From a virus, in the IMG/VR virus record IMGVR_UViG_3300028299_000015, positions 1 to 33,003 of that record: a stretch of 33,003 bases of DNA; one strand, written 5' to 3'. Position 1 is the stretch's first letter; each line of letters begins with the position of its first letter. The position numbers and the translations under genes were made by a program. Positions 3,809-21,783 of this stretch are shown one piece after another. Under the pieces are notes generated by a model. The model did not search any database, was not told the DNA's origin, and worked only from the letters and a program-made list of their open reading frames with translations.

Positions 3809-3909
3809 AAATTAAATTTTATGCTTCTATTTAGCTCCACCCGCCGACCTCAAATATAACGACTTTTGATTTTTTAAATTATATTCTCGCAAGCTAAATA
3901 GTTATATTA

Positions 3910-3937
3910 GCCAACCTTCTTTATCAAGATTGGTTTA
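3910..3937 (-). terminator. Imperfect hairpin just after the capsid gene
   Basis: Immediately after the capsid stop codon the minus strand reads AGCC, AACC, a two-base bulge, TCTT, a short loop, AAGA, GGTT, GGCT. This forms an imperfect stem of about 12 pairs. There is no strong T-run after it, so it may be an mRNA 3' stabiliser or weak terminator rather than a classical intrinsic terminator. It separates the capsid gene from the beta-helix gene across about 125 non-coding bases (3809-3934). Confidence 0.35.
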
Positions 3938-4939
3938 GGCTACACTGTCCCCACTGGAGAACTTCGTCCAGGCAGCACCGACGCAGGTGATACCATAACC
4001 AGCTCGGTTACGGAAATCCCAGTCATCGGTTTGAACGTCTTCAGCGTTGCCATTCGCCACAGGAGGAATCATATGGGGAGATTCCCATTCACCGAAGAAG
4101 AGCGAACTCATCGCGGTGGATGCGATTCCCCAATATTTACTCTTGGTCGAATCAGGAGCGCCAGCGGCAGTCAACGCCACTCTCGGAAGAATGACGTGCC
4201 TGTATTTACCAACGTAGTTGTTAAATACACCTGCATGCGCGGCATCCGGAGAAGCAGTTGATTTCAAATATTCTCGGACAGTGTTGACCGTGTTGGGGTC
4301 ATCAGTGGTCCATAGAACATCGAATACTGCTCCTGGTTTAGCTTCGCCGAGTTGGTTATAAGTATCAGTTATAATCAACTTCTCCATTAACTCCAAAGCT
4401 CCTTTTGAAAGCTGTGGGTTATTGGCCAGACGATTTCTGTAGGTTGTGCCCGATCCCTTCAATGTGTGCAAGGTATAGAACAGTGCGAATGTGTCACCAG
4501 TACTAACATCGATGGTTCTACCATCTCTGTCGGTATATGACTGCGCTGTTCCGAAAGTGAACCGGTGGCTCAGATCCAAGTCAATGCTATTCGGACCCTT
4601 CTGACCAGCAGCGAGTAATGTGCTGATTATTTCAGGATACTTGTTCTCATCTCTCATCTCAAAAGTAATCCCTACGTTTTCAGCTACTCTATACTTAGTC
4701 ATGGTCTTGGTATAGCCCTGTTGAATCTTACCGCGAGCCGCTTGATCGCCTTCGCCTTTGTAGCTCAAGTATTCGTTAGTATCGATTTCACTAAACTCTC
4801 GTGTGTTACCAGTATTCTTGGTAACGGGAACTCTCTTTACTAATCCAGAATTGAGCATCGCAGGCACGATCGAGGTATAACCCTTGATCCAGATAACTGT
4901 TGCCAATTTTACGAAGTCACCAAAACTTATTGTATTCAA
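3935..4939 (-). CDS. Probable major capsid protein (no ATG start)
   Basis: A 334-residue protein with the size, composition and place of a phage major capsid protein: after terminase, portal, scaffold-like and decoration-like genes. It has no signal peptide or membrane segment. The region TREFSEIDTNEYLSYKGEGD leads into a long alpha/beta body. The start is unusual: the frame has no ATG. The nearest initiator is TTG at 4939, and the frame stays open 18 codons further upstream to the TAA of an HNH gene in the same frame. The first in-frame Met (about residue 28) would remove part of the N-terminal helix. The true N-terminus may be TTG-initiated or may have been disturbed by the HNH insertion. 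The capsid call rests on context and overall look, not on a search. Confidence 0.75.
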   Translation of the reverse strand: MNTISFGDFVKLATVIWIKGYTSIVPAMLNSGLVKRVPVTKNTGNTREFSEIDTNEYLSYKGEGDQAARGKIQQGYTKTMTKYRVAENVGITFEMRDENKYPEIISTLLAAGQKGPNSIDLDLSHRFTFGTAQSYTDRDGRTIDVSTGDTFALFYTLHTLKGSGTTYRNRLANNPQLSKGALELMEKLIITDTYNQLGEAKPGAVFDVLWTTDDPNTVNTVREYLKSTASPDAAHAGVFNNYVGKYRHVILPRVALTAAGAPDSTKSKYWGIASTAMSSLFFGEWESPHMIPPVANGNAEDVQTDDWDFRNRAGYGITCVGAAWTKFSSGDSVA

Positions 4940-5627: not shown

Positions 5628-6053
5628 CTAGGTGGTGCCTTTTCCGCCCGGACCGATGTTGAGAATAACCTCAGCTTTGGTCGTGGATAGATATTTCGTT
5701 ATCTGAACAATGTCGTACGTTGAACTGGCGCGACTAACATGAAGTGAATCAGTTAAATCGCAGTACAGACCTACATCCGCCACTACTAGAGTAGCGGTAA
5801 CGTCCGCAGTCCAAGTGACATAATTCTCTAACGGAACTTCCACCGGCAATAATCTCGCAACAGCGTAATCATCGTCGGTCGCAGCGACTGCTTTGCGCAG
5901 TACTCCGGCCGTTGCCTCATTCGCAGTCGTAGAAGTTGCCGCGATTAACGTACCGCTGTCCCAGCAGACCAATGAATGATCTGATAGAGCACCGGCTGAC
6001 GCAGCCACAGGGAGATACATGATTTTCGTTCGTCCTTGTTTTCGTATAAACAT
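5628..6053 (-). CDS. Probable head decoration or capsid-accessory protein
   Basis: A 141-residue protein placed immediately before the capsid gene, a usual place for head decoration proteins. It is rich in Ala, Thr and Val (SAGALSDHSLVCWDSGTLIA, VARLLPVEVPLENYVTW) and reads as a small beta barrel. It has no signal peptide or membrane segment. The start at 6053 (MFIRKQGRTK) is chosen as the longest; a second Met lies 11 codons in. Family not recognised with certainty. Confidence 0.6.
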   Translation of the reverse strand: MFIRKQGRTKIMYLPVAASAGALSDHSLVCWDSGTLIAATSTTANEATAGVLRKAVAATDDDYAVARLLPVEVPLENYVTWTADVTATLVVADVGLYCDLTDSLHVSRASSTYDIVQITKYLSTTKAEVILNIGPGGKGTT

Positions 6054-6129
6054 ATGCGTTTTTTTGTTACACTAACCCAATCTACTTCGACTTTAAAATT
6101 AGTTAGATTGTACCCTTATTTTTTTTCCA

Positions 6130-6166
6130 CGAGATTAAGCGTCTTCTCTGACGTTGTGGTATCTCG
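6130..6166 (-). other. Stem with internal loop downstream of the tRNA
   Basis: CGAGAT pairs with ATCTCG, then across a small internal loop AGCGTC pairs with GACGTT (one G-U), closed by a six-base loop. It lies 23 bases beyond the tRNA 3' end in the gene-free stretch before the decoration-like gene. It may help tRNA 3' processing or stabilise the message. No T-run follows on the minus strand, so it is not a classical terminator. Confidence 0.4.
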
Positions 6167-6188
6167 CCTTAACGCCGGCGATGAGCGA

Positions 6189-6263
6189 TGGTTGCGGGAG
6201 AAGGATTTGCACCTCCGGTCTCGGCGTTATGAGCGCCGCGAACTGCTACTGTTCCATCCCGCT
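6189..6263 (-). tRNA. Initiator-type tRNA-Met (CAT) with encoded CCA
   Basis: A 75-base cloverleaf. Acceptor positions 2-7 are GCGGGA with TCCCGC; position 1:72 is an A-A mismatch; the D stem is GAAC/GTTC; the anticodon stem is CGGCG/CGCCG with loop CTCATAA (anticodon CAT); the T stem is GGAGG/CCTTC; the end is ACCA. The unpaired 1:72 position and the A11-U24 pair are bacterial initiator features, and the general layout follows tRNA-fMet. Deviations: the three anticodon-stem GC pairs are not in GGG/CCC orientation, the D loop (AGTAGCA) lacks the GG pair, and the T loop is TGCAAAT instead of TTC-. It lies between head genes and is flanked by two hairpins. Confidence 0.88.
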
Positions 6264-6268
6264 TTATT

Positions 6269-6297
6269 GGGCAAGTTAATTTTAGTTTAACCTGCCC
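6269..6297 (-). other. Strong hairpin immediately 5' of the tRNA
   Basis: GGGCAGGTTAA pairs with TTAACTTGCCC over 11 pairs (one G-U) with a 7-base loop. It starts 7 bases after the stop of the 146-aa gene and ends 5 bases before the tRNA. There is no T-run after it on the minus strand, so a processing or mRNA 3'-protection element is more likely than an intrinsic terminator. Confidence 0.6.
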
Positions 6298-6303
6298 GCT
6301 ATG

Positions 6304-6744
6304 CTATTCCCCGAGTTGTTCAAGAATTCCCACTAGCGTTCTCAATTGCCACTCCGGTATTGGTTGCCTCTCTGCGACATTCTGCCCTGGAACACTCTTT
6401 GCTGTTATGCTTAGCAAGAAACCCTTCAAGAACACTGTTTGATCTAACGTCAATTCAATCTGTTTCTTATCGTTCATCCATCCTTCCGTGAATTTATCTT
6501 TCAACTTAAGAAATAACTTATAGTCCTTCAGATCGTATAACCGAGTGTCAAACTTCATGAATAGTCCGTTCAATAATCCCATGTAGTCATCTCGCTTGTA
6601 CACCTTCTCTCCGTTCAAATCTTTTACCTGCTTCCCCTTTTTATCTATTCCTTCTTCTTGGACCATATCGATGACTATCGGTTTGATCTTGTTCTCCGGC
6701 GCCACAGATGACGCGCCAGTATCTTTCATTTGTTCTTTGCTCAT
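6304..6744 (-). CDS. Head-module protein of unknown function
   Basis: A 146-residue soluble protein, Lys- and Asp-rich in the first 50 residues (MVQEEGIDKKGKQVKDLNGE) and helical afterwards (FLKGFLLSITAKSVPG, QLRTLVGILEQL). It lies four bases after the 145-aa gene and just before the tRNA, within the head gene block. It could be a head-completion or tail-assembly factor, but nothing in the sequence names it. The pair with the upstream 145-aa gene is probably a co-translated unit. Confidence 0.6.
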   Translation of the reverse strand: MSKEQMKDTGASSVAPENKIKPIVIDMVQEEGIDKKGKQVKDLNGEKVYKRDDYMGLLNGLFMKFDTRLYDLKDYKLFLKLKDKFTEGWMNDKKQIELTLDQTVFLKGFLLSITAKSVPGQNVAERQPIPEWQLRTLVGILEQLGE

Positions 6745-7203: not shown

Positions 7204-7737
7204 CTAGTTAACGAATCTTTGTTTAAAGAATTCAATCCAATATTCTCTGCGAAAATTGACCTTTGAATTACATCTTCTACAAAGTGTAATCAAATTTTCG
7301 GGATTACAATTCTTTTTATCATAGTCAATGTGATGAACCGTGTCGCCGTATTGACTACAATTCTGACAAATATAATTATCTCTTTCTCTAATTGCTCTTT
7401 TAAGAGTTTGCGTCCATTCTACAGGATAAGATTCAAAAGATACTCCACCCTTCCAATTCGAAGACTTCTCTCTCAATGCCTTGCCTTTTCTATTTATGGA
7501 CATTTTTTCTATCGATTCCTCTGAATGATGTTTACCCAACATTCCTTTTCCGTTGTTTTCGCTAATCTTATTTCTAGTTTCTTTTGAATGGTGTTTGCCC
7601 CTCATTCCATAATTAGGATTTATCTTAGCGTTTCTTACCCTTGCTTCTCTAAATAATGGTGTAATTTTTCTAGTCTTAGCTCCCTCGCTCATTCTTTTTA
7701 AAGCATATTCCGAACGTTTATAAACTCCCATTGGCAT
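7204..7737 (-). CDS. NUMOD3-HNH homing endonuclease
   Basis: A 177-residue endonuclease. Two NUMOD3-type DNA-binding repeats are visible (GKHHSKETRNKI and GKHHSEESIEKMS, about residues 48-80), then WKGGVSFESYPVEWTQTLK and the HNH core with CQNC, HHIDYDKKNCNPENLITLC and CNSK, ending NFRREYWIEFF. It is intact in all key residues. It sits between two head genes with short A/T-rich junctions. The same architecture occurs at 9201-9650 and as a fragment at 8284-8458. Confidence 0.96.
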   Translation of the reverse strand: MPMGVYKRSEYALKRMSEGAKTRKITPLFREARVRNAKINPNYGMRGKHHSKETRNKISENNGKGMLGKHHSEESIEKMSINRKGKALREKSSNWKGGVSFESYPVEWTQTLKRAIRERDNYICQNCSQYGDTVHHIDYDKKNCNPENLITLCRRCNSKVNFRREYWIEFFKQRFVN

Positions 7738-9200: not shown

Positions 9201-9650
9201 CTAGCTAAAATAAACTATCCAATATCCCCTATTAAAATTTGTTTTTTGGTGGCAACTGTCACAAAGAGAAATAAGATTTTTGGGGTCAAGGTTGTCTTTA
9301 TTATAATCTATATGATGAACAGACAATTTTTTGTGCCACCCCACTAATTCATTTTGATGTATTCCACAACCAGACATCTGACAAGTATGTTTGTCTCTTT
9401 TTCTAATACTTTCTTTTAAATCATCGGTCCAATCGCTTGGATACGGTTCTTCCCATATTCCACCCCGCCAATTTGGATTTTTATCTCCCCTTTGAGCTTT
9501 TCTAAGTTTATTTAAAATTTCTTCTGAAGGATGTCTTCCTATAATTCCATTAGGACCAAAACCGTTTTTATTTCCTTTCATCTTCTCCTTTATTTTTCTC
9601 TTAGTTTCTTCTGTGTGATGTTGGCCACTCATTCCTTTGCTTTTAGACAT
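9201..9650 (-). CDS. NUMOD3-HNH homing endonuclease
   Basis: A 149-residue endonuclease with two NUMOD3-like repeats (GQHHTEETKRKI, GRHPSEEILNKL, residues about 9-50), the linker WRGGIWEEPYPSDWTDDLK, and an HNH core: CQMSGC, HHIDYNKDNLDPKNLISLC, CHQK, NFNRGYW. It lies between the 119-aa gene and the scaffold-like gene. The 100 bases downstream (9100-9200) hold no gene but show a TCGACT/AGTCGA stem. Same architecture as 7204-7737. Confidence 0.95.
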   Translation of the reverse strand: MSKSKGMSGQHHTEETKRKIKEKMKGNKNGFGPNGIIGRHPSEEILNKLRKAQRGDKNPNWRGGIWEEPYPSDWTDDLKESIRKRDKHTCQMSGCGIHQNELVGWHKKLSVHHIDYNKDNLDPKNLISLCDSCHQKTNFNRGYWIVYFS

Positions 9651-16862: not shown

Positions 16863-17438
16863 TTATTTTAAAAATTCTTCCAATTGTTCTTTATTGTTAT
16901 TCTTTTGTCCATATATTTTATGAAATTCTTGATGTATTGCTCTCATCAATGTTATCCCGTTATTTATATTCCAAAGTTCCTCACATACCAACGCCTGTTC
17001 CAATGTCTTAATTTGATATTCTTCAATTATTTTACTCAATGATTTAATATGATGAGACTCAATTTCACCAATTTTTTGACCAGACTTTTGACAAGTATAA
17101 TTATATTTTTCAAATACATCAGACCGCCACTGACGATATTTAAAACAATCCCTTATTCTATTAACTAATAATTTAAGTCCCCCTTTACCGTCAGAATTTT
17201 TTAATATCCGAAGAGATTCACTTATCTTCTTTCTAGTTTCCATTGGAAGATGTTTTCCCCTCATTGATTCAGATATTTTTCTTCTAGTAGTTTCTGAAAA
17301 ATGTTTACCGAACATTGGATTTTTATCACCAATCATTAAACCAGTAAGAGATTCACTCAAATGTTTTTTATGTTCTTCTGACAATTTTCTACCCGCTTTG
17401 CGTAGATAAACGCCACTTCTTCCCTTTTTTCCTGCCAT
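16863..17438 (-). CDS. NUMOD3-HNH homing endonuclease
   Basis: A 191-residue enzyme with a basic N-terminus and three NUMOD3-like repeats (LSEEHKKHLSESLTG, GKHFSETTRRKISESMRG, GKHLPMETRKKISESLR, residues about 18-75), then CFKYRQWRSDVFEKYNYTCQ and an HNH core with ESHHIKSLSKII and WNINNGITLMRAIHQEFHKI. The C-terminus EQLEEFLK equals that of the HNH in front of the capsid gene. It lies between a duplicated structured element (17451-17667) and the ParB fragment. Confidence 0.95.
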   Translation of the reverse strand: MAGKKGRSGVYLRKAGRKLSEEHKKHLSESLTGLMIGDKNPMFGKHFSETTRRKISESMRGKHLPMETRKKISESLRILKNSDGKGGLKLLVNRIRDCFKYRQWRSDVFEKYNYTCQKSGQKIGEIESHHIKSLSKIIEEYQIKTLEQALVCEELWNINNGITLMRAIHQEFHKIYGQKNNNKEQLEEFLK

Positions 17439-20796: not shown

Positions 20797-21282
20797 TTAT
20801 TTAATAAGTAAGTTAGGATTCTCATAGATATTGAAAGTCTTCCATTTGCGACTATTACAATTTCTACAAAGTGGTTGTATATTTTTGATAAAATCTGTTC
20901 CACCCAAAGAAAGAGGCTTAATATGGTCTTTAGTTAGTTTCTTATTCTCACCACATTTAGCACATTTATAATTAAATTTTTTACATAACTTCTGCCAATC
21001 TTCAAGAGTATGAGAGCCTTTAGCATATTTTTCTCTGGCATATCTTCTCGCTTTAAGGTGGGCAATTCTTTCTGGGTGTAATTTGGCATATCTTTTATAA
21101 TAAACTTGCTTATTTTCTCCTATTTTTCTTATGCCCCTATAGGCAAATTGCTCTTGAAATGGAAGTTTTGTTTTTCGAAATTCTGAATAACATTTTTGAT
21201 TACAAAAAACTCTCTTATATCGTTTAATAATTGATGGCTTTTTAATAACTTTCTTATTACAATTTGAACATTTTGTTAGCAT
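20797..21282 (-). CDS. HNH endonuclease with N-terminal zinc finger
   Basis: A 161-residue protein. The N-terminal CSNCNKK...CNQKCYSEF is a treble-clef-like zinc site. The C-terminal HNH core is CAKCGENKKLTKDHIKPLSL, GGTDFIKNIQPLCRNCNSRK (Cys2 pair, DH, N, Cys2 pair), complete in all catalytic and zinc residues. It is of the McrA/HNH type rather than NUMOD3. It lies between YopX and the unknown 177-aa gene. A homing role is likely from its company. Confidence 0.95.
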   Translation of the reverse strand: MLTKCSNCNKKVIKKPSIIKRYKRVFCNQKCYSEFRKTKLPFQEQFAYRGIRKIGENKQVYYKRYAKLHPERIAHLKARRYAREKYAKGSHTLEDWQKLCKKFNYKCAKCGENKKLTKDHIKPLSLGGTDFIKNIQPLCRNCNSRKWKTFNIYENPNLLIK

Positions 21283-21708: not shown

Positions 21709-21783
21709 GGGGTGAGGGGTGGGACTCGAACCCACTTCTTCGCCTGTCGGCGACGTCTGAACCCCTCGACTTTCCCTCACCCC
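21709..21783 (-). ncRNA. tRNA-like structure lacking an anticodon arm
   Basis: On the minus strand GTGGG-TTCGAGT-CCCAC is a perfect T arm, stacked directly on an acceptor-like helix: GTGAGGG with CCCTCAC, extendable to GGGGTGAGGG/CCCTCACCCC (10 pairs). Between them lie two further hairpins: GTC/GAC around a 10-base D-like loop and TCGCC-GACA-GGCGA, which resembles a class II variable arm. No 5-pair stem with a 7-base loop and no anticodon can be formed, and no CCA follows. It is therefore tRNA-like, not a working tRNA. Confidence 0.6.

Follow-up and report, generated by a model that had tools for sequence, protein, structure and literature searches.

The window analysed here, a stretch of 33,003 bases from an IMG/VR virus record with nearly all of its genes on the minus strand, carries an initiator-class tRNA in the leader of its probable decoration and capsid genes. 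We put the chances at about even that this element works as an initiator tRNA and, in addition, directs RNase P processing of the capsid mRNA. What is unexpected is its position in the capsid leader, together with the mini-tRNA counterparts that occupy the same slot in related phages. The features on which the argument turns are listed by position.

3935..4939, minus strand: candidate major capsid protein gene, assigned by its place in the head module; no family match.
5628..6053, minus strand: probable decoration gene, called dec here from its place beside the capsid gene; the tRNA lies in its leader.
6079..6109, minus strand: leader hairpin H4, with AGUCGA in its loop, from folding.
6127..6159, minus strand: leader hairpin H3, made up of a stem, a UAAUCNC internal loop, a second stem and an AGAGAA loop.
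6163..6185, minus strand: leader hairpin H2, 3′ of the tRNA, from folding and counterparts in relatives.
6189..6263, minus strand: initiator-class tRNA-CAU, 75 nt, with an encoded CCA at 6191-6189, from ARAGORN and Rfam RF00005.
6205..6211, minus strand: T loop UGCAAAU, with G55; U54, C56 and A58 are retained.
6222..6238, minus strand: anticodon arm CGGCG CUCAUAA CGCCG, with the anticodon at 6231-6229 and without the GGG/CCC of cellular initiators.
6244..6250, minus strand: D loop AGUAGCA, in which A18 G19 replaces G18 G19, from sequence and co-variation with position 55.
6269..6297, minus strand: hairpin GGGCAGGTTAA..TTAACTTGCCC, immediately 5′ of the tRNA; the tRNA of relative L416 also has a hairpin on its 5′ side.
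6304..6744, minus strand: upstream gene of the same cluster, whose stop lies 41 nt before the first acceptor-stem pair of the tRNA.

Two callers agree on a tRNA-Met(CAT) at 6263..6189 of the minus strand (ARAGORN, and the Rfam tRNA model at 53.1 bits, E 7e-9). It reads AGCGGGA UG GAAC AGUAGCA GUUC G CGGCG CUCAUAA CGCCG AGACC GGAGG UGCAAAU CCUUC UCCCGCA ACCA, and its unmodified MFE fold is not the full cloverleaf. Every feature named in the original prediction is present in the sequence: the A1-A72 mismatch, the A11-U24 pair, the CAT anticodon and the encoded CCA, as well as a D loop without GG (AGUAGCA) and the T loop UGCAAAU. As a benchmark for class we used a published table of 9,917 bacterial CAU tRNAs, in which A11:U24 occurs in 4,430 of 4,438 annotated initiators and in no elongator or Ile-k2C tRNA, and A1.A72 in 39 of the 4,438 initiators as opposed to no Met and two Ile-k2C tRNAs (PMC5143459). 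Set against these counts, the combination of A11:U24 and A1.A72 places the window tRNA in the initiator class, a sequence-based assignment that is well supported and that agrees with the earlier reading. Elongator tRNA-Met and tRNA-Ile(k2C) were rejected as candidates because C11:G24 and a paired 1:72 are absent, with A11:U24 and A1.A72 in their place. The determinants of formylation and P-site use at 2:71, 3:70 and 1.72 are present, from which the activity itself is predicted; G2:C71, C3:G70, G4:C69 and A73 match those of E. coli tRNA-fMet.

In common with bacterial initiator tRNA-fMet, the window tRNA has CAU, A73, a 1.72 mismatch, A11:U24, G2:C71, C3:G70 and an encoded CCA. It differs in having A1.A72 rather than C1.A72, GCG/CGC rather than GGG/CCC and A18.G55 rather than G18.U55, and in being phage-borne, within a capsid operon. 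The GCG/CGC stem at 29-31/39-41 had been overlooked earlier. Initiator stem types reported at these positions are GGG/CCC, AGG/CCU, AGG/UCU and GGG/UCC, the first of them in 3,849 of 4,438 cellular initiators (PMC5143459). With GCG/CGC in place of GGG/CCC, the window tRNA is therefore initiator-like and not a canonical tRNA-fMet, and this missing stem, rather than the elbow, is its less expected departure. Among the IMG/VR matches listed, GGG/CCC occurs in 8 of 36 initiator-like phage tRNAs with U55 and in 1 of 55 with G55 and R11. Phage initiators that do without GGG/CCC let one ask which textbook initiator features an infected cell needs.

Initiator-like tRNAs had been called rare among phage tRNAs, which overstates the case: R11:Y24 is found in 40 of 98 distinct IMG/VR CAT tRNAs among the matches listed, a count that, like the others from these matches, is to be taken as an estimate since some contigs could hold prophage flanks. 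In the same matches, 3 of 40 R11-class tRNAs have a strong 1:72 pair, compared with 42 of 58 Y11-class tRNAs (p = 5e-11). Cultured phages also carry G55 CAT tRNAs similar to that of the window (Erwinia phage Cronus, Stenotrophomonas phage QDWS359, Synechococcus phage S-PM2 and Roseobacter phage DSS3P8), annotated as tRNA-Met or, as in QDWS359, tRNA-fMet. Unlike the window tRNA, these mostly adjoin other tRNA genes outside the capsid leader, often with a second tRNA-Met alongside.

The claim that both partners of the tRNA elbow are changed holds for one of its two pairs. Positions 18 and 55 differ on both sides; C56, however, is intact, and the AG of the D loop supplies G19. In place of the canonical G18-psi55 plus G19-C56, the window tRNA thus has A.G at 18.55 and a G19-C56 that is able to form. 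For a sample blind to the elbow, IMG/VR was scanned for CAT tRNAs with the loop CTCATAA fixed and any base allowed at 55. Among the matches listed, 98 distinct CAT tRNAs paired U55 with GG in 94 cases and G55 with AG in 4, with no exceptions (p = 2.8e-7), and in ARAGORN predictions across all loci examined the 18/55 link extended to other anticodons with few exceptions. A scan of 84,980 genomes, one per species, returned 118 stretches with the G55 CAT tRNA pattern, some of them chromosomal initiators from Kerfeldbacteria, Adlerbacteria, Kaiserbacteria, Saccharibacteria and other Patescibacteria. By strict patterns, the AG-type initiator D arm was present in 13 and the GG type in 16 of 192 patescibacterial genomes. 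Some of these chromosomal initiators (Kerfeldbacteria, Adlerbacteria, Kaiserbacteria and others) share the D loop AGUAGNA and the T loop UGCAAAU with the window tRNA, and several have A1.A72, with at most 59 of 72 positions identical to it; unlike it, they usually have AGG/CCU, TGG/CCA or GGG/UCC in the anticodon stem and are not phage-borne.

Since 18 and 55 change together, 19/56 is retained and chromosomal tRNAs share the swap, we regard A18/G55 as an alternative coordinated pair that involves no loss of structure. A broken elbow was rejected on the joint change at 18/55 and the kept 19/56, and the fold of the window tRNA is probably maintained despite its altered elbow bases. No description of an A18/G55 elbow turned up in the literature searched, although that does not establish novelty; an A18/G55 pair is also present in human mitochondrial tRNA-Leu(CUN). 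Several tRNAs with different anticodons have the A18/G55 elbow in two Verrucomicrobia stretches (L278 and L291). The rule that A18 goes with G55 offers a simple aid for tRNAs that programs or readers call odd.

The head module of the window runs in the order terminase, portal, scaffold-like gene, several small genes, probable decoration protein and capsid. The dec product gave no Pfam or PHROG matches, and its gene is conserved beside the capsid gene in relatives. The capsid candidate is 63-76% identical in 14 contigs; searches found no close cultured relatives for it and distant matches for the terminase only. As expected of a punctuation element, the window tRNA lies between co-directional genes, and consensus scans found no promoter or terminator near it.

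Between the tRNA and dec lies a conserved multi-hairpin leader RNA (6079-6185 of the minus strand in the window, and in L408-L469), which stands before the dec and capsid genes and has CGUNAAAA-type ends and AGUCGA loops. The H3 motif recurs in L416, L009, L013, L014 and L005. When searched for as C.CAGAGAAG.GUAAUC.CG, it was found in 5 of 2.9 million contigs, all of them in tRNA or mini-tRNA leaders of this phage family, and AGUCGA or GGUCGA loops are present in the leaders of most close relatives. MAFFT alignments of the whole leaders and of H3 ignored structure and were left out of the counting. The leader matches no Rfam family, the window region giving the tRNA only. GOLLD, tmRNA and other Rfam RNAs with a tRNA part likewise had no match there, and the relatives' leaders gave tRNA only, apart from a sub-threshold 17-nt tmRNA match on the T arm of the L014/L421 mini-tRNA. 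L416 has a group I intron at 3903-4095 (Rfam, 82 bits), at the end of the capsid gene region; in L015/L436, too, the capsid match is fragmented.

Relatives sharing the capsid and decoration genes were gathered in three scans, giving 34 distinct leaders. A full initiator-class tRNA stands directly before dec in four of them (the window, L416, L009 and L013). The L416 tRNA has the G55 elbow, and those of L009 and L013 have the standard elbow and the loop UUCAUGA. These four orthologous tRNAs, which amount to at most two or three independent groups as L009 and L013 are close, keep 20/20 stem pairs, with double changes at 11 of them spread over all four helices (0/500 shuffles), and A11:U24 is invariant. 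In five further leaders (L005, L008, L014, L420 and L439) the slot holds a mini-tRNA of acceptor stem and T arm, with the T loop UNCRANU and a 9-15 nt linker, no D or anticodon arm, and no encoded ACCA end, a feature of which some RNase P enzymes make use. The L005 mini-tRNA also has an A.A outside its acceptor helix and G55.

By pattern search, a tRNA or mini-tRNA was present in 9 of the 27 leaders collected first, where shuffles predict 0.005, and in none of seven later leaders, or 9/34 overall, and the pattern had no matches in 3.45 Mb of Markov background DNA. In each of these nine leaders, the stop codon of the upstream gene is -9 to +42 nt from the element. A plain hairpin fills the slot in the remaining 25. 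A promoter-like site was found in 11 of these 25 (1.2 in shuffles) compared with 1 of 9 tRNA or mini-tRNA leaders, a difference that is suggestive only (p = 0.08); the L439 leader has both a promoter and a mini-tRNA. In L009 (=L414, 3191-3262) and L013 (=L419, 5357-5428) the upstream gene ends within the 5′ portion of the tRNA, and processing of that tRNA would strip the stop codon from the upstream message. Across all loci examined, a mini-tRNA scan returned mostly fragments of ordinary tRNAs outside this phage family. Possible acceptor and T-arm mini-tRNAs were seen in two other phage contigs, L260 (3184-3223, minus strand) and L061 (3655-3701, minus strand), the latter with a G55 initiator-like tRNA about 1 kb away.

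The window tRNA lies within the late gene cluster, in the structured leader upstream of the decoration and capsid genes, with which it is probably co-transcribed. We hypothesize that it is probably cut out by RNase P and then trimmed at its 3′ side. Excision would provide additional Met/fMet initiator late in infection, and the same event would sever the polycistronic RNA immediately upstream of the capsid-gene leader. In related phages the slot retains only the acceptor stem and T arm, the part that RNase P recognises, or contains a plain hairpin, often with its own promoter. Because a mini-tRNA without an anticodon is unable to decode, the element in those relatives has either another job or none. 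Intact stems in five unrelated mini-tRNA sequences disfavour the latter, and we propose that processing at the slot determines where the capsid mRNA begins. The RNA released in the window phage would be usable as an initiator too, because the D arm, anticodon arm and CCA are kept.

Model substrates consisting of an acceptor stem, T-stem and T-loop are cleaved by RNase P (PMC11143913), and the five mini-tRNAs have the same architecture. They differ from those substrates in being natural, in having the 9-15 nt linker and in lying in a phage mRNA leader, where their cleavage is predicted. The arrangement also resembles mitochondrial tRNA punctuation, with a tRNA between same-strand genes near the upstream stop, whose processing would free the downstream mRNA; the phage case differs in having a single site, mini-tRNA versions in relatives and processing that is presumed. 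In the window, the encoded CCA and the preserved anticodon arm both point to an element used as a tRNA, and punctuation could thus be incidental. Extended to the whole phage group, the proposal that initiator tRNAs and the acceptor and T-arm mimics derived from them are RNase P punctuation marks defining the capsid mRNA 5′ end is more tentative, and we place it somewhat below even. If the processing role is true, one phage tRNA would have two jobs, supplying an initiator and cutting the capsid message, and the mini-tRNAs would be real-life versions of long-used RNase P model substrates.

The element might instead do nothing beyond supplying an initiator late in infection, with its place in the capsid leader incidental and the mini-tRNAs decayed copies. 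All four full tRNAs keep initiator identity and the cloverleaf, that of the window also has CCA, and the initiator class is common among phage CAT tRNAs (40/98 among the matches listed). We nevertheless think simple supply rather unlikely, as the five unrelated mini-tRNAs have lost the D and anticodon arms yet retain intact acceptor and T stems, which random decay would not achieve, and conservation extends to the slot and to the leader motif downstream. It is less probable still that the tRNA is a structural domain of the leader RNA, acting for example in anti-termination, packaging or translation control, with the T-loop fold as the needed shape. The leaders are structured, their hairpins are common to relatives, a plain hairpin fills the slot in most, and some (L436, L408) have terminator-like hairpins; such a role would, however, require neither complete initiator identity nor the compensatory changes seen in the D and anticodon arms, and the leader has no Rfam match.

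The original prediction offered two further roles. One was evasion of tRNA-cleaving defences, in which the altered elbow and anticodon stem would keep host nucleases, or toxins such as VapC and AtaT, from attacking the phage initiator. VapC is reported to cut initiator tRNA in work cited in PMC10264068, and GGG/CCC is found in 1 of 55 G55-class phage initiators among the matches listed, though most cellular ones have it (PMC5143459). The idea gained no support from the elbow: chromosomal initiators use the same variant, the standard elbow is seen at this site in relatives, and the phage has no known host or toxin. We regard evasion as highly improbable. The other role, favouring non-AUG or leaderless starts of phage messages, we consider close to negligible. 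A Shine-Dalgarno sequence precedes 5 of 41 phage genes against 18% at control ATGs, which is no signal, yet 36 of the 41 genes start with ATG, the CAU anticodon is unchanged, and patescibacterial loci show little Shine-Dalgarno signal too.

A patescibacterial or similar host is plausible from the sequences. The cellular tRNAs closest to the window tRNA are patescibacterial initiators, in a comparison set that is rich in Patescibacteria and hence biased. No Shine-Dalgarno signal was found in the window phage genes or in those of relatives; upstream regions of all genes in the window are A/T-rich. Despite the likeness of the tRNA and the weak Shine-Dalgarno signal, this host is unproven, since the capsid was not found in 379 patescibacterial genomes (a search without a positive control) and the TTCATGA loop of the L009 tRNA occurred in 0 of 192.

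The window holds a second tRNA-like element at 21709-21783 of the minus strand, 17 nt before a YopX-like gene, with an acceptor helix of about 10 pairs, the T arm GTGGG-TTCGAGT-CCCAC and a 4-nt loop at the place of the anticodon loop. It scores 35 bits with the Rfam tRNA model, lies in a region that folds at z = -5.5, and perhaps represents a tRNA-Ser type from which the anticodon arm has been lost. Interspersed between structural and other genes are several free-standing genes for HNH or NUMOD3 endonucleases (7204-7737, 9201-9650, 16863-17438 and 20797-21282, minus strand).
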